Shown: piece by piece, positions 22,039 through 35,890 of the stretch
How the letters are laid out: each line of letters opens with the position of its first letter
Position numbering within the stretch: the stretch's first letter is position 1
Source: an uncultured Poribacteria bacterium
Lineage (GTDB): Bacteria; Poribacteria; WGA-4E; WGA-3G
Assembly: GCA_951828385.1 (NCBI GenBank)
Contig: OX639973.1
Location: 4,517,200-4,581,199, forward strand
Direction of reading: 5' to 3'
DNA: 64,000 nucleotides
Made by a program: the position numbers and the translations under genes
The notes under the pieces: model-generated
The model's database searches: none
What the model saw: only the letters and a program-made list of their open reading frames with translations
Told to the model about the DNA's origin: nothing

Positions 22039-25000
22039 ATGCAGATTCCGACACTCATTGACAATATAGAAGGGAACACCCTCCAAAAAGTTCTCGAAAG
22101 CCTCCTCGTAAAAAGTATCCGTTTAGATGTAGCGACCGGCACATTTGAAATTGGTGCATTTCTATCGCTCGGGAAAACGTGGCGGCACTTAGATGGGATT
22201 CGTCTCTTGATGGGTGACGAGACGACAAAACGCACAAAAGAGCATCTCATCAGAGCTCTCCGAGAAGTCACCGATGCCAATATTGAAGCCGAAAAGGAAC
22301 AGGATGACACCCTCCACGGGCTTGCTGCTGTACGCGAAGCAATTCGCACAGGACAAATTACCGTTCGCGTTTACGATAAAGCCAAGTTTCATGCGAAACT
22401 CAACTTAATGCACGCCCAAAATTCCAGTCCTGTTGACTTCGCTACCGTCGGCAGTTCCAACTTCACCCGTCCAGGCCTCACCCAAAACGTCGAGTTAAAT
22501 TCCTTCATCACAGATGCAACGCATATTGAAAAGCTCAGTGATTGGTATAATGCCCGTTGGGAAGAAGCCTCTGAGGTGAAGGAGGAACTGCTTCGGACGA
22601 TTGAACGACATCTTAGAGAATATCCACCGTTTACAGTTTATGCAAAAGCACTGCACACCTACTTTAGGGGACGCGAAAAACCTGCCGATGAGTGGGAAGA
22701 AAAGGAATCGGTGATTTACCGCACGCTTTCGCAGTACCAAAAAGATGGTTACCACGCCGCTCTCCAGATAGCCGATACATGGAATGGCGCGCTGATCTGT
22801 GATGGTGTCGGTAGCGGGAAAACGTACATCGGCTTGATGTTACTTGAACGCTATCTCAGAGACAACAAACGCGTCCTGCTCATCACCCCCAAATCGATTG
22901 AGGAAAGCGTTTGGAAAAGTCAGATTAATCGCCAACTTGAACCGAAGTATGGTCGTCTACTCCGCGAGCACTACGATATAAGTCGACATACCGATTTCGG
23001 TCGCCAAGGTCGGATAAGCGAAGGTAATCTTAAGTACTTTCGAGAACACAAGGACGTTATTATTATAGACGAAGCACACCATTTCCGAAATCCAAGTTCC
23101 AACCGCGGACGGCTTCTCATGGAACTTGCCAGAAACAAAAAACTCTATCTCCTCACCGCTACGCCGATCAATAACAGTGTCAACGATATTTCTCATCTGA
23201 TTAACTATTTCGCGCAGGGCAACAGCGGGCACTTCGCCAGCATCGGCATGCACGATTTCCGTAAGCACTTCCGCGATATTGACAAGAAGCTTGAGGATGA
23301 GAACGTCGAGATTGCCGAACAGGTTGAAGAAGACGATCTCCTTCGCCAAAATCCTGTGCTAAAACAAGTGCTCATTCAACGGAGTCGCAAATATATCAAG
23401 GATGCTGAGATGGAATCAGGAACACATATCCTCTTTCCAAAACGTGTTATAGAGCCTACCGTAGATTACTCACTCCGTCGAGTTTATCGAACGCTCTACG
23501 ACGAACTGCAAGCTGCCTTCGACCGACATGATCCGTTTCTCAATCTGGCAATTTACAACACTGTCAAGTATCATAAAAATCCAGAAAAACAGATTGAACA
23601 GCGCGAAAAGCAGGTTATCGGTCTTATCCGGACGCTTGTGCTCAAACGTTTAGAAAGTTCATGGAAAGCGTTTGAAGTAACTGTTGAAAATCTGCTTCTC
23701 AAGATGACAGGCTGGCTCGAGAAATACGCCCCAGAACGTTTTGAAATGTGGAAAGGCACAAATCGGAGGTGGTGGAGCGTTGTTCAGGAACACATACTTG
23801 AACGACTCCAAGAGGATGGCATCTCACGACAACGTAACCGAGTAAACCTACAGCGTTTTGTTGATTCCAATCCATCTGAAGAAGAAGACGACCTCGCTTC
23901 AATTGAAACCGAAGACGATTTCATTCTGGACGACCATGATGTAGACATGTTATTTGACGATGTTGTGGACGATATGAACTTCTTGACCGGTCTCCTCAGT
24001 CGAATCTATAGGCTTTTCTATGCTGACGAGTTGGCTAACGAACCTGATACACAGCAAGATGATAAACTCCAGCAGCTTCTAAAACTGTTAAAAAAGCATC
24101 CGAATAAGAAAATACTGATCTTTAGCGAATTCTGTGACACGGCTCGCTACCTTGACAAACAGTTGCAGCAAGCAGGTTTTAAGAATATAGAACAAATTGA
24201 TAGCCGACGCAAAGTAAACCGTGAAGAAATTATTGAACGATTTTCGCCATGCTACAACAGTAGATCCCCTGAAAGTGTTGAACCGGTTCAAACGCTAATC
24301 ACGACAGATGTCCTCGCTGAAGGTCTCAACTTACAGGACGCTTCTATTATCATTAATTACGATTTACATTGGAATCCAGTCCGACTTATGCAGCGCATCG
24401 GTAGATTAGACCGACGGCTTGACCCAGCAATTGAGGTGCTCCTCAACCGTACAGACCCTACCGTTCACGTCTGGAATTTCCTGCCACCAACGGAGCTTGA
24501 TGACATTCTCAGACTCCGAAGACGCGTTGATGGCAAAATTCTTCGGATCAGTCGTACCCTCGGTATTGAAGGGCAGTTTGTTTCGCCTGATGATCCTGAC
24601 GAGACAATCCGACTTTTCAATGAACGCTATGAGGGCACGGAAAACACTGAGGAACTGATGAATCTTGAACGTCAACGCATCTCTGAATTACACCCTGAAC
24701 TGTGGAGACAACTGCCAAATCTTCCGATGCGTCTTTTTTCTGGCAAAGGTGTAGACGACGAGCCGCCACCTTTCCTCAATCGCGATGGTGAATCTGTCCC
24801 ACTTGATCGTGTCGGTAACCCTGGAGTTTTCTGTTGTTATGAGATGCCAAACGGCGAAATTAAGTGGTATTTCTACGATACTTACATAGAAGACGTTATT
24901 GATGACATTGAGGCAGTCTGGCCCGAGGTGCGTTGTGATATCGAAACGGCGTGCTGGACTGAGGACGGACCGGGAGCACTCGTGGATGCCCGTAAAAAAA

Positions 25001-25092
25001 TTGAACGCTACATACGCAACAAGTATCTCAAGCATATACAGACATCCATGGGTGCAAAATCTAAACTTATCGCATGGATGGAAATTTCATGA
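22039..25092 (+). CDS. PLD-nuclease/SNF2-type helicase fusion (defence or restriction protein)
   Basis: This 1017-residue protein joins two parts. Residues 1-200 form a phospholipase D-like nuclease domain with one HxK motif (KFHAKLNLM, His118/Lys120) followed by GSSNFTRPG. Residues about 230-850 form a superfamily 2 SNF2-like helicase: Walker A GVGSGKTYIG (about 254), DEAH box IIDEAHHFRN (about 343), LLTATPINN (about 371), and motif VI in MQRIGRLDRR (about 785) after LAEGLNLQDA. The C-terminal 150 residues are unassigned. PLD-helicase fusions next to an N6-adenine methyltransferase are typical of restriction-like defence loci. The helicase would move on DNA and the PLD part could cut unmethylated DNA. 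RBS is weak. It is followed 31 bases later by a small gene and then the methyltransferase. Confidence 0.88.
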   Translation: MQIPTLIDNIEGNTLQKVLESLLVKSIRLDVATGTFEIGAFLSLGKTWRHLDGIRLLMGDETTKRTKEHLIRALREVTDANIEAEKEQDDTLHGLAAVREAIRTGQITVRVYDKAKFHAKLNLMHAQNSSPVDFATVGSSNFTRPGLTQNVELNSFITDATHIEKLSDWYNARWEEASEVKEELLRTIERHLREYPPFTVYAKALHTYFRGREKPADEWEEKESVIYRTLSQYQKDGYHAALQIADTWNGALICDGVGSGKTYIGLMLLERYLRDNKRVLLITPKSIEESVWKSQINRQLEPKYGRLLREHYDISRHTDFGRQGRISEGNLKYFREHKDVIIIDEAHHFRNPSSNRGRLLMELARNKKLYLLTATPINNSVNDISHLINYFAQGNSGHFASIGMHDFRKHFRDIDKKLEDENVEIAEQVEEDDLLRQNPVLKQVLIQRSRKYIKDAEMESGTHILFPKRVIEPTVDYSLRRVYRTLYDELQAAFDRHDPFLNLAIYNTVKYHKNPEKQIEQREKQVIGLIRTLVLKRLESSWKAFEVTVENLLLKMTGWLEKYAPERFEMWKGTNRRWWSVVQEHILERLQEDGISRQRNRVNLQRFVDSNPSEEEDDLASIETEDDFILDDHDVDMLFDDVVDDMNFLTGLLSRIYRLFYADELANEPDTQQDDKLQQLLKLLKKHPNKKILIFSEFCDTARYLDKQLQQAGFKNIEQIDSRRKVNREEIIERFSPCYNSRSPESVEPVQTLITTDVLAEGLNLQDASIIINYDLHWNPVRLMQRIGRLDRRLDPAIEVLLNRTDPTVHVWNFLPPTELDDILRLRRRVDGKILRISRTLGIEGQFVSPDDPDETIRLFNERYEGTENTEELMNLERQRISELHPELWRQLPNLPMRLFSGKGVDDEPPPFLNRDGESVPLDRVGNPGVFCCYEMPNGEIKWYFYDTYIEDVIDDIEAVWPEVRCDIETACWTEDGPGALVDARKKIERYIRNKYLKHIQTSMGAKSKLIAWMEIS

Positions 25093-25123: not shown

Positions 25124-25693
25124 ATGCTTGATAATATTGCACACGATATTCAAAAGGTTCACAACTTTGAATCTTTAGTCGATTTTTTACGAGATACGCT
25201 CTATTGGCCCATTCCGGACGAAGGACTGGAGTTTGAAGAAATTACCTATGACTGGTCCGCAGAAGATCTTAGACTTGACGCTAACACCGAAGCCAGAATT
25301 ATTAGTTGTAGACAATTGCAGCTTTACGATCTCGAATTTGATTTATCTGCGATGGTGCGTAAATCTAATGGTAAAACTGATACCTATCAGCAGCTGCAAC
25401 TTTTAGATTTAGATTCGCTGGATAACCAACAACCGTGGGGTATCTTCTTTATTGAATTTTCAGATGACGTGGAACTTGATGCCTGCAAAACCCTTTTACG
25501 CCGAGTCCTTCGAGGACTCGTTGATGGACCCAATCATAACGTTTGGCTTCCATTTTGGGACTATGATAGACTGCTTTTTATCTGTACTACCACCAGTTTT
25601 CAAGATATTAGTTTTGCGTCCTTCAGCGGTGGGAAAAATCGTCCTATTGTTGATGACTATATTCTACTGCACTATTTCCGATTGGATTCATAA
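25124..25693 (+). CDS. Stand-alone copy of the methyltransferase N-terminal domain
   Basis: The ATG at 25124 follows GGGGAGG; a longer frame reaches back to 24899 but overlaps the helicase coding region. The 189-residue product aligns end to end with about the first 155 residues of the next protein. Examples are NFESLVDFLRDTLYWPIP against DFDTLLDFLREELDWPIP, QPWGIFFIEF against QPWGIFFLQF, LLRRVLRGLVD against ALRRVLRGLVE, and LLFICTTTSFQ against LLFICTTTDYQ. It has no methyltransferase motif. It is therefore a free recognition, docking or specificity module made by tandem duplication, with an extra insertion in the middle. Gene order and spacing (10 bases to the next ATG) indicate one operon. 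Function is unknown. Confidence 0.82.
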   Translation: MLDNIAHDIQKVHNFESLVDFLRDTLYWPIPDEGLEFEEITYDWSAEDLRLDANTEARIISCRQLQLYDLEFDLSAMVRKSNGKTDTYQQLQLLDLDSLDNQQPWGIFFIEFSDDVELDACKTLLRRVLRGLVDGPNHNVWLPFWDYDRLLFICTTTSFQDISFASFSGGKNRPIVDDYILLHYFRLDS

Positions 25694-25702
25694 GGAAACC
25701 GA

Positions 25703-28690
25703 ATGCCATACATAACACCAAACAATATTCATAACATCCGTGACTTTGACACCCTCTTAGATTTTCTACGCGAGGAACTTGATTGGCCTATTCCCGAAAA
25801 CGTTGAACTCGAAGATATTGCCTTCCCTTGGACCGCCGAAGACCTTGATCTCGATGAACTGACTGAAGAATTGGTCATTAACTGCCAACAGCTGCCCCCT
25901 TTCTCGACCAGTCAACCGACGCTTGGAATTTTTGAGGACACTCAGCCGTGGGGTATCTTTTTTCTCCAATTCGACAGCGAAAAGGTCTATCGCACTGCGC
26001 TCCGTCGTGTCCTCCGTGGACTTGTTGAAAGGCGAGATCGGGACGCAAGCCTACCTGCATGGAAACACGACCATCTCCTCTTTATCTGTACCACAACCGA
26101 CTATCAACGCTTTGCCTTTGCACACTTCGCTGCCACTGCGGAAAACTGGCACCGTGCTGTGCTATCTATCTTCTCTTGGGAACAGGGAGATACACATATC
26201 CGTACGCTCTGTGAATATAACCTTCCCGCGCTCGCCTTTCCAAGCGACGGCTTTTCAGATGACACAGCATGGTTAAAAGCATGGCAAGAAGCATTTGATG
26301 TAGAGACAGTTACCGATAAATTCTTTCGTGATTACCAAAGTGTCTTTGCCCAAGTAGAAGCCGCTGTTGAAGGTATTCCAGAAGACGAAACAGAAACACG
26401 CCGACTCTACACGCAGCGTCTCTTTAACCGATTGATGTTTCTCCGTTTTATTGAAAAGAAAGGATGGCTTACCTACAACGGTAATCGCGATTACCTCCGT
26501 TCCCTCTTTGATGCAACAGAGGCACAAACAGACGAAAACTTTCTCAATGACCGACTCTATTGGGCATTCTTTCATGGGCTTGGTAACCCTGCGAATTTAC
26601 CTCAGGATTTGGCTGAGGCTGTTGAACGGCGCGGTGAAGTCCCGTTTCTCAATGGCGGACTCTTTGAAATGCAGGAATATGACAACCGCAACGCTGTCCA
26701 TATTCCAAATGACAAATTTTCCGAAATCCTGAAACTTTTTGAGCGGTACAATTTCACGGTAACCGAATCCACCCCCCTTGATATTGAGGTGGCAGTCGAT
26801 CCAGAGATGCTCGGAAAGGTATTTGAAGAACTCGTAACCGGTAGACACGACACCGGCAGCTACTACACACCGCGCCCAGTGGTCTCCTTTATGTGCCGCG
26901 AGAGTCTAAAAATCTGCCTCCAGAATAAAACCGACGAGACACCGGAAACCCTCAAGGCGTTTGTTGATGATGGGGATGCAACGGAAATTCGCAATCCAGA
27001 GAAAGTGTTACAGGTGCTGCAGACGCTTCGGATATGCGATCCGGCGTGTGGCAGCGGTGCCTATCTACTCGGTATGATGAGCGAGTTGCTCCGCTTGCGA
27101 GACGCGCTCTTCCAAAGTAAAGAGATCGACTCAAAATCAACCTATCAACGCAAACTTGACATCATTCAGCAAAACCTCTACGGCGTGGATAAGGACGAAT
27201 TCGCTGTCAATATCGCTATGCTCCGCTTGTGGCTCAGCCTTGCAGTCGATTACGAAGACGATACCCCAGAACCATTGCCCAACCTCGACTATAAAGTAGC
27301 AACGGGGGATAGTTTGACCGGTCCCGCACCCGAACAAATCAGTCTCGCGAGTCACTTGATTGACCAGATTCAGGAACATCAAGCCGAATTTCTGGTCACC
27401 TATACTGATCCAGAGAAACAGAGGCTCCGGGAGGAGATTGCTGAACTCAGAGGACATCTCCAAGAATGGCAAGCAAGCGATGATGAATTTGTCTGGCAGG
27501 TTGAGTTTCCAGAAGTATTCCAAGAGGGCGGATTTGATATTGTTATTGGTAATCCGCCCTACGTGCGTCAAGAACTCATCAGGCCGATTAAGCCGACTTT
27601 AAAAAGATTGTTCCCGGAAGTCTATATAGGAACTGCGGACCTCTACGTCTACTTTTACAAACGTGGAACGGAGCTGCTTCGTGTTGGTGGAGTTCTCACG
27701 TATATCTCCTCTAATAATTTTCTGAGGGTAGCCTACGGGGCAAGACTCCGATTGTTTTTTACTAGTGAAGTGTGCTTACATAGACTTCTTGATTTTGGAA
27801 ATGTTCCAGTTTTTGGCGCGAGTGTAAACACTTGTATTGTCCTTGTTGAAAACACTACACCGGGTGGAGAGGCATTTTTCGCCGCTACTTTTCGTGACGA
27901 GGCGGATGTTTCTCGTCTCTCTGATGCGTTTCAAGGGCGTGCTTTTTCCATGAATACCGGGGATTTATCACCTGATGGATGGGCATTGACATCACCGGAG
28001 GCACTGAAATTGCTCAGGAAACTAAAAGACATCGGAGTGCCGTTGGGAGAATATGTGGATATGGGTTTCTATATGGGGGTGAAAACTGGATGTAATGCTG
28101 CATTTGTCATCGATGAATCTGTAAGTCGGCAGTTAATTGCTGAAGATATTAACAGCAGTGAACTCATAAAACCGGTGCTGAGAGGTAGGGGGCTTAGCAG
28201 ATGGAAAACCGAGTCAGTGAAAGAATATCTGATAACAGTAGCGAGCAGTGTAAATAGAGAGTGGCCCTGGTCAGATGCAAGAAACGATTTAGAAGCAGAA
28301 CGGATTTTCGCTGAAACCTATCCAGCAATCTATCAACATCTGAGCAATTATCGGGAACGGTTGATTGCACGCGATGATCAGGGAAGATTTTATTGGGAAC
28401 TCCGTTCTTGTGCCTATTATACCGAGTTTGGAAAGCCGAAAATTGTTTATACACAAACAGCAAAATTGCTCTACGCGTGCTATGACACAGGGAAGGCATT
28501 TGGATTAAACAATGTATACTTTATACCTACCAATGACCTTTCCCTACTTGCTATTTTAAATAGTCAGCTTTTTGATTGGTACGCTCGGCACAAATTTTAT
28601 AGTCTTAATGATCCCTGGGCGGGTGGAGGTTTGCAGTTTTTTGCACAGTACATGGAGAAGGTCCCAATTGTACTGCCTACGGTTTTTTAG
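25703..28690 (+). pseudogene. Eco57I-like N6-adenine DNA methyltransferase, 3' end cut off by insertions
   Basis: The open frame gives 995 residues. It has an N-terminal domain (1-155) shared with the preceding gene, a linker helical region, a methyltransferase core with motif I DPACGSGAYLLGM (about 446) and motif IV IVIGNPPYVRQEL (about 616), and a C-terminal target-recognition-like region (GVKTGCNAAFVID, RGRGLSRWK). The last residues MEKVPIVLP run straight into a TAG that belongs to the IS3 end. The normal C-terminal helical tail of this family is found 2.5 kb downstream at 31184-31369. All catalytic motifs are intact, so the truncated protein might still methylate, but the full-length gene is broken. 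Confidence 0.88.
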
Positions 28691-28747
28691 GCCACTCCCT
28701 AAAACAAGATTGTGCTATAATACAATCTCACTGAAAGGAGTTATCTA

Positions 28748-29032
28748 ATGGCCAAACGAAGAAAATTCACCTCCGAGTTTAAGACGGAACTCGTTCTGGA
28801 GGTTCTTAGCGGTGCGACTTCTCAAGCAGAAGTGTGTCGGCGTCATAATCTCAATGAGGACCAACTCTCGAAATGGAAGCAGCAGTTTCTTGAAAAAGCC
28901 CCCTCGCTGTTTGATTCTACTGATAAACCGTCCAGCGATGCGGAGAAGCGTATCACTCACCTTGAGCATCTCGTTGGGAGAATGGCCGTGGCGTTAGACA
29001 TCCAAAAAAAACTATTGACATGGTTGGACTAA
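28748..29032 (+). CDS. IS3-family transposase OrfA
   Basis: The 94-residue protein has an N-terminal helix-turn-helix of the IS3/IS911 type (RRKFTSEFKTELVLEVLSG, QAEVCRRHNL, LSKWKQQFLEKA) and a leucine-zipper-like C-terminal helix. OrfA binds the element ends and, fused to OrfB by frameshifting, forms the active transposase. RBS AAAGGAG precedes the ATG. Confidence 0.92.
   Translation: MAKRRKFTSEFKTELVLEVLSGATSQAEVCRRHNLNEDQLSKWKQQFLEKAPSLFDSTDKPSSDAEKRITHLEHLVGRMAVALDIQKKLLTWLD
29004..29011 (+). other. Programmed -1 frameshift site of the IS3 element
   Basis: Eight consecutive A residues include the heptamer A AAA AAA in the correct phase (codons AAA at 29006 and 29009) just before the end of orfA. 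orfB is in the -1 frame and overlaps orfA, as needed for production of OrfAB. A slippery run in the right phase is seen; frameshifting itself is inferred. Confidence 0.7.
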
Positions 29033-29868
29033 CGTTGTCTGAGAAGCGATGCTTCATTTCGGCATTGCAAAAGGAGCATTCCGTGCGAGATATTTCTGGC
29101 ATCCTCGGTGTCAACCGGGGTAGTTTCTATTATCACCGCCAAGAGGATCCGTCCGAAGCCGTCCTGCGATCAGAAATAGAGAAACTTGCTGGACAGTATC
29201 CGAGATACGGGTATAGGCGTATCACGCAGTTGCTACAGCGTCAGGGATACACCGTTGGAACCCGACGCGTCGCCCGGTTGATGAAAGAGAAGAATCTCTT
29301 AGTCTCCGTCAAGCGTGCCGGTCAAACCACAAAATCGCTTCAGGCGGATAAACCTTGGAGCAACCTGCTCGAAAACCTTGACGTTTCTCATCAGGATCAG
29401 GTCTGGGTTTCCGATATTACATACGTCCGTCTCAAGGGACGCTTCATCTATCTCTGCCTGCTCATGGATGTTTTCACCCGGATGATCAGAGCTTGGCAAC
29501 TCAGTCAGCACTTGAACCAATCTCTGACGCTCAAACCGCTGAAAGAGGCATTGGACCACAGCGTCCCGGAGATTCATCATTCCGATCAAGGCGTGCAGTA
29601 TCTTTCAAAGGTCTATATTACCACGCTCGAAGCACATGGCATTGAGATTTCCGTCGCCCGTCGCGGATGCCCTTGGGAGAACGGATATGCTGAAAGACTC
29701 ATCCGCACGCTCAAAGAGGAAGAAGTTGACATCAATGACTATCAAAGCATCACCGAGGCGAGAGATCGCATCGGACATTTTATCGAACAAGTGTATAATC
29801 AGAAACGTCCACATTCGGCGTTAGGATATTTGACACCTATCGAATTTCAACGACAAAACTTGTCTTAA
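29020..29868 (+). CDS. IS3-family transposase OrfB (DDE integrase)
   Basis: The 282-residue reading frame has the IS3 OrfB layout: HTH_21 region (RYGYRRITQLLQRQGYTVG) and an rve integrase core with the DDE residues in VWVSDITYV (first Asp), IHHSDQGVQY (second Asp) and WENGYAERLIRTLKEEEV (Glu). It ends YNQKRPHSALGYLTPIEF, as usual. The catalytic set is complete, so the element may still be active. Confidence 0.93.
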   Translation: MVGLTLSEKRCFISALQKEHSVRDISGILGVNRGSFYYHRQEDPSEAVLRSEIEKLAGQYPRYGYRRITQLLQRQGYTVGTRRVARLMKEKNLLVSVKRAGQTTKSLQADKPWSNLLENLDVSHQDQVWVSDITYVRLKGRFIYLCLLMDVFTRMIRAWQLSQHLNQSLTLKPLKEALDHSVPEIHHSDQGVQYLSKVYITTLEAHGIEISVARRGCPWENGYAERLIRTLKEEEVDINDYQSITEARDRIGHFIEQVYNQKRPHSALGYLTPIEFQRQNLS

Positions 29869-29926
29869 CTTTGCTAAATTGTGGCCTAAATAAGCGTATG
29901 CACTTCACAATAGCCGATGTCAATAA

Positions 29927-30124
29927 CCCCCGACTGAAGTCGGGGGCTTGTGCGAAGCGTATACCAAACGTTCACTCCACAAGTTAAACTATTTTCTACA
30001 GTAAAATATCGTAATATCTGTGGTGGTTCACAAAAGTATTTAGGATACTCCCCTCGTCCTATATCAATGCCGATATTACGATCTGGAAGGGGCAATATAC
30101 AACCCGTAAGGGAGATTACAAACG
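29927..30124 (+). ncRNA. Candidate omega RNA (HEARO-like) of the IsrB element
   Basis: The 198 bases before isrB contain no gene but several nested pairings. These are the 8-bp terminal hairpin (29927-29946), CTTGTG/CACAAG (29947-29952 with 29978-29983), and an 11-bp perfect long-range stem ATCGTAATATC (30008-30018) with GATATTACGAT (30072-30082). IscB/IsrB proteins use an RNA transcribed just upstream of their gene, with the guide at its 5' end taken from sequence outside the element. Here that would be bases just left of 29927. Structure is seen; function is by analogy. Confidence 0.65.
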
Positions 30125-31153
30125 ATGTTTGTTCCGGTGACGAGTCAAACAGGTCAGAAGTTGATGCCTACGCATGCTAACAAGGCGGGCGTGCTGATTA
30201 AGAAAGGTTTAGCCACGCCCTATTGGTCTAATGGGATATTCTGTATCCGGCTTAACTATGCTACCGAAGACGCATACACACAAGATATAGTCGTCGGTGT
30301 AGACCCCGGTAGCAAGAAAGAAGGCTTTACCGTCAAATCAGAGGCACACACTTACTTGAATGTGCAAGCAGACGCTCACGGGACTGTCGGCAAGAAAGTC
30401 GCGAAGCGTAGTGAGTTGCGTAGAAGTCGGCGTTCACGAAAATGTCCGAATCGCAAACAGAAAAAGCACAATCTATCTAATAGAGACCGTATCCCCGCAG
30501 GCACGCGTGCGAGATGGGATTGGAAGTTAAGGGTTCTTGATTGGCTTTCTAAACTCTATCCACTCACGCATGTCTGCGTTGAAGATATTAAGGCGCCGAC
30601 GATACAACGTGCAAAGAAGTGGAATCAATCGTTTAGTCCTTTGGAAGTCGGTAAACAGTGGTTCTATAGCGAAATCCAAAAGCGTTGGGAACTCTACACT
30701 TTACAGGGTTGGGAAACCAAAGAGATACGGGATAGGTTAGGTCTCAAGAAGTCTTCAAAGAAACTATCAGAAACCTTTGACGCACACTGTGTAGACAGTT
30801 GGTGTCTGGCACATCATAGCGTAGGCGGTTTGGATATACCCGATAACACGACGCTTCTGTGTATCTCACCGATACCGATAAAACGCAGAGAGTTGCATAG
30901 GCAACAGGAAGCGAAAGGCGGTAAACGCACACGGGTGGGCGGAACTCTATTAGGGAAAGGATTGGTCAAAAACACACTCATTCGGCATGTCAAATACGGA
31001 TTAGCCCGACTCGCTGGCGTTAACGCAAAGGGTTTGTTTTCAATATACAGTATGGAAAACAAACGATTAACCACGGGGGCGAAGCGGTCTGATTTCAGAG
31101 TGCTAACACGTCTTAACTTTTACTACAAGAGCGGTGTTTCCTCCCCTGAATGA
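30125..31153 (+). CDS. isrB: IsrB, HNH-less IscB-type RNA-guided nickase
   Basis: The 342-residue protein has the IscB/IsrB order: an N-terminal PLMP-type domain (VPVTSQTGQKLMPTHANKAG), RuvC-I with Asp60 (VGVDPGSKKEG), an Arg-rich bridge helix (about 94-114, RRSRRSRK), RuvC-II with Glu153 (VCVEDI) and RuvC-III with His221/Asp224 (FDAHCVDSW). About 65 residues separate RuvC-II and RuvC-III, with no HNH motif, which distinguishes IsrB from IscB (HNH inserted there). Known IsrB proteins of about 350 residues nick DNA using an omega RNA. The stop codon lies within the right-end hairpin. AAGGGAG lies 12 bases before the ATG. All RuvC residues are present. Confidence 0.85.
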   Translation: MFVPVTSQTGQKLMPTHANKAGVLIKKGLATPYWSNGIFCIRLNYATEDAYTQDIVVGVDPGSKKEGFTVKSEAHTYLNVQADAHGTVGKKVAKRSELRRSRRSRKCPNRKQKKHNLSNRDRIPAGTRARWDWKLRVLDWLSKLYPLTHVCVEDIKAPTIQRAKKWNQSFSPLEVGKQWFYSEIQKRWELYTLQGWETKEIRDRLGLKKSSKKLSETFDAHCVDSWCLAHHSVGGLDIPDNTTLLCISPIPIKRRELHRQQEAKGGKRTRVGGTLLGKGLVKNTLIRHVKYGLARLAGVNAKGLFSIYSMENKRLTTGAKRSDFRVLTRLNFYYKSGVSSPE

Positions 31154-31183
31154 ATTCAGGGGTTTCCACACCGAAGATAAGAG

Positions 31184-31369
31184 ATGACATCAACACAGAA
31201 AGCAGAGTTGTCACGTCTCGTCAAGCAGATATTAGCAGACCCGCAAAGCGATGGCGTACGTGATGTTGAGCGGGAGATAGACGAGTTGGTGTATCAGCTA
31301 TATGGGTTAACAGATGCGGAGATTGAACTGATTAAGCAGACATATCGTGATGCTGGCATGGAGGTGTAA
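31184..31369 (+). pseudogene. Detached C-terminal tail of the methyltransferase
   Basis: The 61 residues (STQKAELSRLVKQILADP near the start, then EREIDELVYQLYGLTDAEI) are the helical tail that normally ends Eco57I/type IIG methyltransferases. They match what is missing from the frame that stops at 28690. Between the two parts lie an IS3 element and an isrB element. An in-frame TAA lies 6 bases before the ATG, so it is not translated as part of the larger protein. It could only be made as a separate peptide if at all. Confidence 0.85.
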
Positions 31370-31411: not shown

Positions 31412-33772
31412 TTATGCCTCTTCGGTCTCCAAAAATGCTCGGAAGGCTTTATGTATCTGAAAACGTTCTTCTGTTCCTTTCCTGTTTGCGAATTTCCTAG
31501 CCATAATTTTGTTCTTGCGAGAATTCTCCGGTTCTTCAGAAAAAATAAAACTATTTTCTCTTACTTCTATTCCGAGGAATGTTAAGTCATGAAGAAGGTC
31601 AATTGTAGATTCTATCCTGTCTTCTGAAATCCCTGCTAATTTTAATGTTTCTGTTACTTGCTTCTTCCGCAAAATAACGGGCATTCCAGCAAACTCATAG
31701 ATGGCATCTTCAAGATTTATATCGGGTGAAGTATTTTCTGCCTTAATACTATCAAGGACTTGCGAGAAATACTGTTTCTCTGCCTCAAATATATCTTCTT
31801 CTTCTATCAATGGATGCCTTTTATTAATAGCTGTTGTTACTGCAGTATTTACGAAATAGATAATGTCTCTTGGTCTTTTCAAGATAGTATTGATTATATA
31901 TTCTCTAGTGGGTATTCCATTAACGGTTGAGCAGAAGTATTGGTCCCATAAGATAGTCGATTCTGGTGTATCAAACGAGGAACAAAATCGTTCTTCTATT
32001 ATGGACAACAGTTCTGGATCATTCCACTTTAGTAGAGAATAAGTCATTTTGTCTGGTTCATTGGCAACTTGCCTAATCCTATAAAAAATGTCGGACCGGA
32101 GAAAAATAGTAAGACTAAGTTTTATTCTTTGCTGTTTACTACTTTGCTGTTGAAGTTCTATAGGAAGTTGTTTGGCTACCTCTAGTAAACTCCACAAAAT
32201 TTCAGACAAGGCATCTATGTCGTTTTGCCGTTCCCACGCCTGGTCCAAATTATCAATTAGAATAGCGATCCTTTGCTCATTTGATAAGAGATTGCCTAGT
32301 TCTATCCGCAATTGTCTCAAAGTGTGACTGTGCAAAATCTCAGAGACTGAAGAATGAATGTTTTCATCATTGGATCCTTCTATTTTTTCTTTAATGTCTT
32401 GAGTACATATCTCTAATCTTGTGGAAAAATCTTCACAAATTATTTCCCTATTTTTCTCAGCAAAGTTGAAGAAACGCTCTGCTGCGTCGGTACTCCGAAC
32501 CGATGGCGGATTGTTATAAACCGTATGGGCAATTTCAGTCAGGAGCAAAAATTTCCATAGGCTTTCTACTGCAGATACTTTATCTTTTCGATGTTGATAC
32601 TGTTTTAGAAGATCTACTACCGCTAGCATCTGGGATCGTTGTGGTTTTATTACACATACCACATTTCGCTGGTGCCTATTGAGTTCATCTTTTAATTTTA
32701 TCAAGTTAGCAGTTTTGCCTGACCCTTTGCGACCAACAAATAGAGTTTGATTACCTCTCACAGCATCGTCGTATGCAGCTGTTGGAATAAAGTATTTCTC
32801 TACTAGACTTTCTTCTTCATATTCAGCGACATGATCTCCAAAACGTAAACTCCTAAGATCTCTAGCTAATTTTGCTGTATGTTGAACCCCAGTTGCTTCT
32901 TGTATGGTTTTCAGAGTTTGTTCTATAGGAGGGATCCACTCGTTCAAATATCTAAGTGCCTCTGCTGCTGTTTTATAAGATCTAAGGTCATCACGAAAAT
33001 CAATAGGTGGTAGGAAATCGTCCTCGGCAAGCATAAGCAACGGCTTTTTCCAACCATAAGCCATACCACAAACCAAGGCGTGTCGAGCAGTTTGAATGTA
33101 TCCACCTTCTCTTTTAAGACTCATAAAGTGGCAAACCATACCGTTACAGTTAAAAACATTGCTGCCATACCAAGCCAACGACTGGACAGTGGATTCACGA
33201 GGGTCATCAATAGTAATTCTTTTGGCGAATGTTTTTTGAAGTAAATTAGACACGCGGACAGCGGCTTGGTCTTCGTGCTCTCTTTTCAAGTGAAAAATGC
33301 TCGGATAACTATTATCTTTTAGACTAGGTTTTATTTCATCCTTGAAAAGTGTATTCTCTATGCTCGCGTAGGGTCTTTCCTTATGGAAACCCTTAACGAT
33401 GTCATCGGAATTGCAGCACCGAGTGTATGCAACGGTACTCAAAACTCCCAACTGATTAAACAATTTTTTTGCTTCTGTATATGTGTCATCAAATATTAAC
33501 CAGATCCGTTTATCATGAGCTATTGCATAGCCGAGTTCAAACATCACATTGTGGTTCAATCCTGTCAAGTCGGCAAAGAAGAGTTCAGCTTCGTCGATTT
33601 CTTGACGGATGGTTTTGATAATAAAATTTCCGCTGGGATTGCATTCCTCCCAAGATTTTATATTTACTAGCCTACTTTTATTTATTTTAGGAACAGCGTC
33701 TCGGATTGCCTCTTTTAAAGTGTCTCCACTTGATGGATACGCAAAAAATGCTTTTGGAGTTGTGTTTGCCAT
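31412..33772 (-). CDS. P-loop ATPase (Sll1717-like) with two N-terminal deoxyribosyltransferase/TIR-like domains
   Basis: A promoter at 33857-33885 lies inside the longer open frame (to 33910). The start is therefore ATG 33772 with AAAAGGA upstream, giving 786 residues. Residues 1-150 form a nucleoside 2-deoxyribosyltransferase/TIR-related fold: FFAYPSSGDTL, a conserved Trp-Glu-Glu, and AELFFADLTGLNHNVMFELGYAIA with the Asp and Glu typical of these folds. A second similar unit spans about 185-300 (HALVCGMAYGWKKPLLMLAEDD). Then comes a STAND/AAA-like ATPase with Walker A LFVGRKGSGKTANLI (about 343) and Walker B AILIDNLDQAW (about 502), and a helical C-terminus ending in a winged-helix-like region. 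This resembles P-loop ATPases of the Sll1717 group. The sensor-effector design suggests an NAD- or nucleotide-acting defence protein; this is inference. Confidence 0.75.
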   Translation of the reverse strand: MANTTPKAFFAYPSSGDTLKEAIRDAVPKINKSRLVNIKSWEECNPSGNFIIKTIRQEIDEAELFFADLTGLNHNVMFELGYAIAHDKRIWLIFDDTYTEAKKLFNQLGVLSTVAYTRCCNSDDIVKGFHKERPYASIENTLFKDEIKPSLKDNSYPSIFHLKREHEDQAAVRVSNLLQKTFAKRITIDDPRESTVQSLAWYGSNVFNCNGMVCHFMSLKREGGYIQTARHALVCGMAYGWKKPLLMLAEDDFLPPIDFRDDLRSYKTAAEALRYLNEWIPPIEQTLKTIQEATGVQHTAKLARDLRSLRFGDHVAEYEEESLVEKYFIPTAAYDDAVRGNQTLFVGRKGSGKTANLIKLKDELNRHQRNVVCVIKPQRSQMLAVVDLLKQYQHRKDKVSAVESLWKFLLLTEIAHTVYNNPPSVRSTDAAERFFNFAEKNREIICEDFSTRLEICTQDIKEKIEGSNDENIHSSVSEILHSHTLRQLRIELGNLLSNEQRIAILIDNLDQAWERQNDIDALSEILWSLLEVAKQLPIELQQQSSKQQRIKLSLTIFLRSDIFYRIRQVANEPDKMTYSLLKWNDPELLSIIEERFCSSFDTPESTILWDQYFCSTVNGIPTREYIINTILKRPRDIIYFVNTAVTTAINKRHPLIEEEDIFEAEKQYFSQVLDSIKAENTSPDINLEDAIYEFAGMPVILRKKQVTETLKLAGISEDRIESTIDLLHDLTFLGIEVRENSFIFSEEPENSRKNKIMARKFANRKGTEERFQIHKAFRAFLETEEA

Positions 33773-33856
33773 TATATCTATGTCCTTTTTTGACGATTTT
33801 GCCTTGCTACTGTTATCGGTGGAGTGAAATGGAAAACATACTATATGCGCGCCCAT

Positions 33857-33885
33857 ATCATAGCACATTTCGGCAGAAAAATCAA
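33857..33885 (-). promoter_or_regulatory. Promoter for the ATPase gene
   Basis: On the minus strand, TTGATT (33885-33880), a 17-base spacer and TATGAT (33862-33857). Its position shows that translation must start downstream, at 33772. Confidence 0.6.
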
Positions 33886-34071
33886 GTGTATTTTGTTTCA
33901 GCAAAATCACTTAGTACTCGGTCTTAAATCCCGGCAGTGCGCGATGTGTTCATTTCTGACATATATTGATTGGTGTGTAAGTTGTATAGGTTGAGAAATG
34001 CAAAAATTAAGTTAACTCAGCAAGTCTATTGAAGGTGTAAGATAGCGCGGGTGAGGAGACTCGCTTTTCCT

Positions 34072-34186: not shown

Positions 34187-35890
34187 ATGAGCATTGATGC
34201 AGACCGGGAGCGGCTATCACAAGCACGTAACTTGGAGTGGATTGGGCGAAAATTAAAAGCGACTGAAATGGTGACCGTGTACCGGGAGATGGGTACTCCT
34301 CGGGATTACTTCATTTTTTCTGCTTTGATTCCTCCAGATCAAATCGAGTACATACTTTCTAATGAACATATGAATTCAGGGGATCCAGAAAGTATGAATG
34401 GTATGCCCGCGGCTTATTGTCCCTCAGGCGAAAGTGAAATTAAATACTTTCGTTGGGGTGTTGATGAAGATATGTATGGGGCAGAACCTTTAGTTATCAA
34501 GCGCTGGTTTGGTGGAATGGAGGAGAATTATATCGAGATTTTAGAAGAATTTCGCCTTTTCCATAATCTCTATCACGAGAAAGAAACAAATACATATATC
34601 AAGATTGATGATGCAGGGAATAAAAGTAAAATCGCTATCGTTAAACCTGATGAGGTTCAGATAAGGTGCCAGGAAATTCGGCAGTTTTTAGCTATCAAAG
34701 AGTTGTACCTGTCAAGGCTGTTTGTATTCGATGAGTATTCGACATATTCCCTTCAAGAACTCGGACTCAGCGAGGATGAACCATGTAAATTCACGAGGCA
34801 GGATCTCATATTTTGTAGGCATCACTATTATGCTGTTTCTGCGTCTTTATCTAGTTTCTCTTCCTACCAAGGATTTCGATCGGCTAGTAGACTGAGAGGA
34901 AGGAGACTTATTGAACCTCTACCGAAGTCTAAGAGCGGTTTAGGGGATTTTGCTGAGGAACCTAAGTATGTCGAATTCATCGTTGACGTTGACGATAACG
35001 GTGATAACGTTTATTATACGTGTAACCCATATAAGTTGAGCCATTTTCCTGAAGAAAACGCAGCTGGAAAGCTTACGCTTGTCCATTTCGATAAGCAGGT
35101 TTTGGATAAGTACTACAACGAACCCAGTAAATACAGTGTTGAGGATTCAATGCTGAGGTGTGCCTCATTGTGGAGTATAAAAATTGACAACCACGCCCCC
35201 GACAAAGTTTGTGTATTCTTAGATGAACTTGGGATTTCTCTGCCTTACGCAGAACAAGAACATTGGCGGGTCCATAACATTCCACCAGAAGGGGGTATGA
35301 GTAAAACCTTTTATAGGCGGATGGTTCGGGGAGAGTGGGCAAGTTCAGATCAACCGGATCACTTGTTCAAGCAAAGCCATGAGCAGTTGCAAAAGGCATG
35401 TGATGAGCATCTGGCTTGGCAGTTGTTGAAACCTCTCGGTCCTGGAGATGAGTACCGCCTCAAACGCTTAAGGATCCCAGTTAGTGATGAACAGTGTGAT
35501 TTTGATGATTTAATTCAGGATCTTCAAACGATATTAATCGAATCAATAAATGTAAAAGGACTCAAGCGGCTTTTACCTGAAGCGGAGAGGGTGAATCTTA
35601 AAGGTAAACGGAGCATTGAGGTTCTTGGAGAGGTCCTTAGTTTCCATTCAGTTGAAGATGCCAATCACCGAGTCTCTTTTTTACAGAAACTTCAGACATT
35701 GCGATCCAAGGGGAGTGGCCATCGAAAAGGGGACGACTACCAAAAAATTGCTAATTACTTTGGGGCTGATAGTCTGGGGCAGCGAGAAGCATTCGTCGGA
35801 ATTCTCAAACAGGCTTTGGATACCGTTGAATTTCTCACCTCTGTGGTGCGTAGTGGCAAACTCAGTGATAAAAACGATGCTGGTTGTTGA
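34187..35890 (+). CDS. Large protein with a C-terminal HEPN-like motif, function unknown
   Basis: The ATG follows GAGGAGAAGATGAAATT. The 567-residue protein has no signal peptide or membrane helix. The C-terminal 110 residues are helical and contain LQTLRSKGSGHRKGDDY, an R-x5-H (Arg506/His512) of the kind that forms the active site of HEPN ribonucleases. The rest, including YREMGTPRDYFIF and HWRVHNIPPEGGMSKTFYRR, is not assignable by eye. It diverges from the ATPase gene and ends at a good terminator. Setting and motif suggest an RNA-cleaving defence effector, but the domain call is by motif alone. Confidence 0.6.
   Translation: MSIDADRERLSQARNLEWIGRKLKATEMVTVYREMGTPRDYFIFSALIPPDQIEYILSNEHMNSGDPESMNGMPAAYCPSGESEIKYFRWGVDEDMYGAEPLVIKRWFGGMEENYIEILEEFRLFHNLYHEKETNTYIKIDDAGNKSKIAIVKPDEVQIRCQEIRQFLAIKELYLSRLFVFDEYSTYSLQELGLSEDEPCKFTRQDLIFCRHHYYAVSASLSSFSSYQGFRSASRLRGRRLIEPLPKSKSGLGDFAEEPKYVEFIVDVDDNGDNVYYTCNPYKLSHFPEENAAGKLTLVHFDKQVLDKYYNEPSKYSVEDSMLRCASLWSIKIDNHAPDKVCVFLDELGISLPYAEQEHWRVHNIPPEGGMSKTFYRRMVRGEWASSDQPDHLFKQSHEQLQKACDEHLAWQLLKPLGPGDEYRLKRLRIPVSDEQCDFDDLIQDLQTILIESINVKGLKRLLPEAERVNLKGKRSIEVLGEVLSFHSVEDANHRVSFLQKLQTLRSKGSGHRKGDDYQKIANYFGADSLGQREAFVGILKQALDTVEFLTSVVRSGKLSDKNDAGC

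Follow-up and report, generated by a model that had tools for sequence, protein, structure and literature searches.

Insertion sequence (IS) elements are known to interrupt restriction-modification and other defence genes, where a precise insertion flanked by a target-site duplication (TSD) produces a pseudogene. The methyltransferase gene described here fits this scheme, but it was split by two unrelated elements only 11 bp apart, an IS3-family element and an IsrB element lacking a transposase. It lies in a stretch of 64,000 nucleotides (hereafter the window; positions 4,517,200 to 4,581,199 of contig OX639973.1, assembly GCA_951828385.1) from the 6.66-Mb, single-contig genome of a sponge-associated Poribacteria bacterium. 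For DtIsrB, NTGA is the target-adjacent motif (PMC9581776). Deletion of the bacteriophage exclusion (BREX) methyltransferase BrxX is not toxic, and this methyltransferase has been argued to supply recognition (PMC11842806). C-terminal mutations of PglX are reported to uncouple methylation and restriction (cited in PMC13326643).

The 5′ part of the interrupted gene (25703-28668, + strand) was delimited by Pfam matches and orthologues and encodes residues 1-989. It matched the families Eco57I (PF07669, E = 9.6e-40) and TaqI_C (PF12950, E = 7e-10, residues 823-968), and the motifs DPACGSG and NPPY were present in the Eco57I domain. Judged from these matches, the gene encodes a predicted adenine methyltransferase of the Eco57I/TaqI_C type. 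PADLOC labelled it REase_MTase_IIG; Pfam showed no nuclease domain. The open reading frame (ORF) extends from 25703 to 28690 (995 aa), and its extent and stop agree with the initial annotation. The end of the frame needs one correction. Because other genomic copies fix the left end of the IS3 element at 28669, the last host-encoded residue is I989, and the six residues VLPTVF and the TAG stop are encoded by IS3.

Intact Poribacteria orthologues (75-82% identity) have open frames of ~1054-1075 aa, in most cases 1049-1055 aa when counted from the start codon. They continue past the break with ...VPIADRTxxQKAELS...LVYQLYGLTDAEIELIKQTYRDAGMEV, and their C-terminal stretch reads ...MEKVPIADRTAAQKAELSRLVEQIL...IDELVYQLYGLTDAEIELIKQTYRDAGMEV. 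This helical tail, ending in LYGL, is cut off in the window by 2.5 kb of transposons and was found again at 31184-31369 (+ strand, 61 codons), where orthologue tails, dN/dS and predicted helices define it. The stranded tail was 78-87% identical to the orthologue ends over 60 residues, showed a dN/dS (ratio of nonsynonymous to synonymous substitution rates) of 0.07-0.16, as is typical of coding sequence under functional constraint, and was matched by the very ends of the PADLOC type IIG/II methyltransferase models. No other protein family aligned better. Its 'ATG' is the NTGA target flank of the IsrB element (ATGA, 31184-31187, + strand, recognized from related elements) and not a native start. 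When both elements were removed in silico, a single open frame of 1052 codons resulted, without a stop and with zero host bases lost. The claim of the initial annotation that two different transposons, IS3 and RRXRR/IsrB, split one methyltransferase gene and stranded its own C-terminus thus held, with the ORFs located as described there. The missing tail is damage to a member of the Eco57I/TaqI_C family and not the sign of another family.

The IS3 element (28669-29907, + strand, 1239 bp) carries two overlapping frames, as the IS3 family requires: orfA (28748-29032, +; HTH_Tnp_1, E = 1e-15), with a helix-turn-helix domain, and orfB (29020-29868, +; rve, E = 1e-19), with the integrase core. Both ends were set by other copies in the genome, the left end at 28669 (TGTACTGCC...) and the right end at 29907 rather than 29888 (...GCACTTCA). 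The terminal inverted repeats are imperfect (TGTACTGCC.../TGAAGTGC...). The element is bordered by two copies of the TSD CAAT (28665-28668 and 29908-29911, read from the sequence), which is 4 bp long here and 3 bp at several other copies, within the 3-5 bp usual for the family. Many copies occur in the genome; comparison with one of them, over 1231 bp, gave 100% identity. Nested IS3 copies were found elsewhere. A preference of IS3 for IsrB ends was considered and rejected: none of the other IS3 copies checked lay within 300 bp of IsrB sequence, and some adjoined other IS3 copies.

The IsrB element (29919-31183, + strand, 1265 bp, boundaries likewise taken from copies) encodes one protein of 342 aa (30125-31153, +). 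RRXRR was its sole Pfam family (E = 7.6e-28), with no HNH family detected, and its best PDB match, IsrB 8dmb (E = 7.3e-29), exceeded any IscB match. Copies elsewhere in the genome were 100% and 99% identical over 29919-31187. Related elements in this genome and others share the left end, GTCA[AG]T[AG]A, as well as the right flank, with NTGA standing directly 3′ of the right end in most of those listed. An Rfam scan of the window at gathering thresholds gave no match, including to the omegaRNA of ~300 nt expected upstream with its guide at the left flank. The 20-nt guide position (29899-29918) consists of 9 nt of the IS3 right end and 11 nt of host DNA, and any omegaRNA guide there would be an IS3/host hybrid. 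The genome contains twelve matches to Y1 (IS200/IS605) transposases as well as one TnpA-TnpB element whose right-end hairpin resembles that of the IsrB element; mobilization in trans by a genomic Y1 transposase is therefore plausible. We also noted four solo IsrB-type right ends of ~50-59 bp at other loci, one of them 100% identical, where the rest of the element was absent. Perhaps these are one-ended remnants.

The gap between the two elements amounts to 11 bases, comprising the right TSD copy and 7 bp of methyltransferase sequence, AGCCGAT (29912-29918, + strand). These seven bases align with the VPI-A-D codons of the orthologues and encode the 'AD' of VPIAD. By a rough chance expectation, 0.0004 IS3/IsrB pairs this close would occur per 6.66 Mb, which makes two insertions 11 bp apart noteworthy. 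Once the first element had landed, the second insertion was neutral. Because 100%-identical copies of both elements exist elsewhere in the genome, both movements were recent. The anatomy, the precision of the insertions, their recency, and the conservation of the tail were directly observed.

We consider, with a probability of about 0.78, that this methyltransferase gene was intact until its recent inactivation and that it belongs to a probable phage-defence locus combining a PLD-SNF2 helicase with an Eco57I-class enzyme. The IS3 element would have entered the gene by the usual 4-bp-duplicating route, and the IsrB element, probably mobilized in trans by Y1, would have gone in 7 bp from there, exactly in front of an NTGA motif. 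The predicted product is a stump of 989 residues plus the six IS3-encoded ones, without the C-terminal helices usually found after the target-recognition domain (TRD). Such a stump would probably be unable to link recognition of its target to the remaining components, so that modification and restriction by the locus would both be off. The intact helicase would then be harmless, the methyltransferase being the supplier of recognition. In molecular terms, this is clear, precise, and recent but ordinary transposon damage to a defence gene.

An AlphaFold2 model was made on an intact orthologue (mean predicted local distance difference test score, pLDDT, 72; predicted template modelling score 0.64). 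In this model, the tail consists of three helices (993-1008, 1015-1029, and 1034-1046) located in blocks with pLDDT 83-95. In an alignment of 22 diverse homologues, down to 27% identity, 29 residues were invariant, two of them (L1029 and Y1030) in the tail, which also held nine of the 63 positions conserved at ≥90%. Nearly all homologues ran through the LYGL-type motif. Those that reach their natural end all entered the tail region, and none ended at the break, a possibility that would have spoken against a split gene. The TRD was also followed by the tail in 11 of 11 TRD units checked among stand-alone specificity-like and fused proteins of relatives. The model fold matched CamA (Z 30) and M.BseCI (Z 25), with both C-termini aligned within the tail, as well as BrxX/PglX (Z 26-28). 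Sequence and model together suggest that the defence locus is probably off, because its recognition module is cut. That the open helicase does not kill the cell would fit recognition supplied by the methyltransferase, by analogy with BrxX (PMC11842806).

Erosion of the locus was also evident in relatives. In genome G010, one IS element interrupted the helicase gene, and the methyltransferase gene was split at residue 783 by an IS630-like element. G029 carries another IS in the methyltransferase gene at residue 507, with a 10-bp duplication. The IS calls in these two genomes are based on inverted-repeat sequence at contig ends, the elements themselves being unassembled. In G005 the helicase gene was frameshifted, and in G016 only remnants were left, most of the helicase and methyltransferase genes having been lost. 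The locus has thus been eroded repeatedly, and both genes are targets. The initial annotation had seen a locus losing, or changing, its modification gene while the helicase stayed open. The window is one instance of this, but it is not a rule, because both genes were hit in relatives. For the same reason, selection acting on the methyltransferase gene was rejected as a general pattern.

Several observations weigh against a simple inactivation. Active M.TaqI, an enzyme of 421 aa, aligned only to residues 991-993 of the model (TaqI 408-413), i.e. to the break. Since M.TaqI ends at this equivalent position, modification may not have been lost, and judged by the model, catalysis without the tail is possible. 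Immediately left of the tail, the window reads GAT/ATG as compared with GAT/CGN in orthologues, so that the codon which stood there before the IsrB insertion can be reconstructed only approximately. In an alternative reading, the stump might still methylate, with loss of the tail uncoupling it from the helicase/nuclease and leaving a locus that modifies but does not restrict. The natural lack of a tail in M.TaqI (Z ~22), the structural match to PglX/BrxX (Z 26-28), and the PglX C-terminal mutations reported to split the two activities (cited in PMC13326643) speak for this reading. We nevertheless consider it unlikely: M.TaqI is a small and distant relative (~20% identity), CamA and M.BseCI, which match most closely over their full length, reach into the tail, as do the aligned homologues, and the invariant Leu-Tyr suggests a structural role for it. 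If true, transposons would have made a solitary methyltransferase, still methylating the chromosome, out of a defence methyltransferase. It is extremely improbable that the enzyme works in two pieces, with the tail translated separately from the IsrB-motif ATG and complementing the stump. The 61-codon frame is open from this ATG, which lies 30 nt past the IsrB stop codon, and the tail sequence is still well conserved. However, no good ribosome-binding site precedes it (CCGAAGATAAGAG), the recency of the insertions accounts for its conservation, and no relative showed such a split.

That selection acted specifically to remove the modification gene, while the restriction partner was retained in some other role, appears very doubtful. 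The methyltransferase interruptions of the window, G029 (a different IS, residue 507), and G010 (residue 783) would agree with it, but the helicase is broken as well in G010 (by an IS) and G005 (by a frameshift), G016 lacks most of both genes, and the breaks fit IS elements eroding the locus as a whole. An assembly or binning artefact uniting unrelated IS copies is similarly hard to credit, even less so than such selection. Multi-copy IS elements are classic points of misassembly, and the locus is read from a single-contig assembly, a point that also counts against inactivation. The matching 4-bp TSD, the in-frame empty site and flanks, and the position of the tail beside the genes that also lie downstream in relatives oppose an artefact. 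The idea that a stand-alone specificity-like protein complements the stump in trans was rejected, the genome having no ORF that combines N-domain, TRD, and tail. TRD matches in the genome fell in other methyltransferases and in large ORFs, one of the FRG/TPR type. Inactivation of a formerly intact gene by the two insertions thus remains our preferred reading.

The close relatives of this genome are all Candidatus Poribacteria from metagenomes; a plasmid search in PLSDB gave nothing nearer than relatives at <60%. Upstream lies the intact PLD(HKD)+SNF2 helicase gene (22039-25092, + strand, 1017 aa; Pfam PLDc_2, SNF2-rel_dom, and Helicase_C; PADLOC C3a139 HKD+Snf2). Ten of the 15 genomes carrying the helicase gene, counting the copy in the window, have it in full length. 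Between helicase and methyltransferase sits a stand-alone gene of 189 aa (25124-25693, +), homologous to residues 7-148 of the methyltransferase, with a good ribosome-binding site of its own (AAGGGGAGG). This N-domain-only gene occupied the same position in seven other Poribacteria loci; the best PDB fold match of the domain (Z 5.7) was not clear. Downstream, between the tail and a 567-aa gene, lies an 832-aa ATPase of the Sll1717 family (31412-33910, - strand; NCBIfam NF047389, E = 1.2e-81), found in the same neighbourhood in four relatives' loci. The 567-aa protein (34187-35890, +) had no match in Pfam, NCBIfam or PADLOC, and was encoded near the methyltransferase in six loci of relatives. 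The recurrent Poribacteria locus hence comprises the PLD-SNF2 helicase, an optional N-domain-only gene, and the methyltransferase, frequently joined by the ATPase of the Sll1717 type and by the 567-aa protein.

Relatives also contained stand-alone specificity-like proteins, consisting of the methyltransferase N-domain, a TaqI_C TRD, and the tail, without a catalytic core (L111:5127-16863 in G038, L110:5276-7753 in G023, and L112:6681-10229 in G048). Four of them stood in tandem, adjoining a methyltransferase fused to a fifth. S1 and S3 had closely matching TRDs (88-98%) and divergent N-domains (~40%), S3 and S4 closely matching N-domains (93-98%) and divergent TRDs (~47%); start and tail were conserved in these mosaics. 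Judging from these sequences, they probably reflect HsdS-like cassette shuffling in the Eco57I/TaqI_C family, which may be more novel than the gene break itself. In the same genome as the window, an 890-aa protein (L113:5689-8358, ~4.114 Mb) combines an FRG domain, TPR repeats, and a TaqI_C specificity domain. Further TRD matches lie near 2.404 and 4.079 Mb, and two other large ORFs, of 865 and 930 aa, match the TRD as well. Two independent assemblies, at the ends of L097 (G049) and L098 (G055), both broke at the TRD-start sequence GGATTCTATCGTGGTGTGGTA, which suggests paralogous or population-variable TRDs at the locus. Further variants were an in-frame repeat insertion (GLDPSENNTPLIRGAGGLDPSE...) near methyltransferase residue 275 with the frame kept open (L109:7491-10859, G035, the same as L156), and a second methyltransferase copy in one locus, which is broken by a stop codon around residue 855 and accompanies an intact one (L096:12925-16137, G045).

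The interrupted gene shows cleanly, and to the base, how IS elements wear down a defence locus in a lineage of sponge symbionts. As a natural allele without exactly the C-terminal helices after a TaqI_C-type recognition domain, it allows a direct test of their role. The IS3 end in the IsrB guide position illustrates that nested insertions can rewrite guides by chance.

Compared with described systems, the IsrB element resembles the DtIsrB type (OMEGA nickase) in protein length (~350 aa), in its RRXRR/RuvC architecture, in 8dmb as best PDB match, and in its NTGA flank, but it has an IS3 element inside the guide region, and its omegaRNA is putative. The pairing of helicase and methyltransferase recalls PglX/BrxX of BREX and DrmMI of DISARM (defence island system associated with restriction-modification), which share a large adenine methyltransferase, a TRD, a helical spacer, and an adjoining SNF2-type helicase. 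Unlike in these systems, no PglZ, BrxC, DrmA or DrmB was detected among the neighbouring genes scanned. Membership in BREX, DISARM or the methylation-associated defence system (MADS) was rejected, the similarity of helicase and methyltransferase being distant and below NCBIfam cut-offs; a literature search on MADS returned nothing relevant. The methyltransferase itself shares core, TaqI_C specificity domain, and C-terminal helices with CamA, M.BseCI, and the Eco57I class (fold Z 25-30). In addition, its residues 1-350 form an N-domain and a helical region, it is partnered by a PLD-SNF2 helicase, and the window copy has lost the tail. M.TaqI has a C-terminal specificity domain of the same family and ends where the window protein is cut, but is a natural stand-alone enzyme with ~20% identity.

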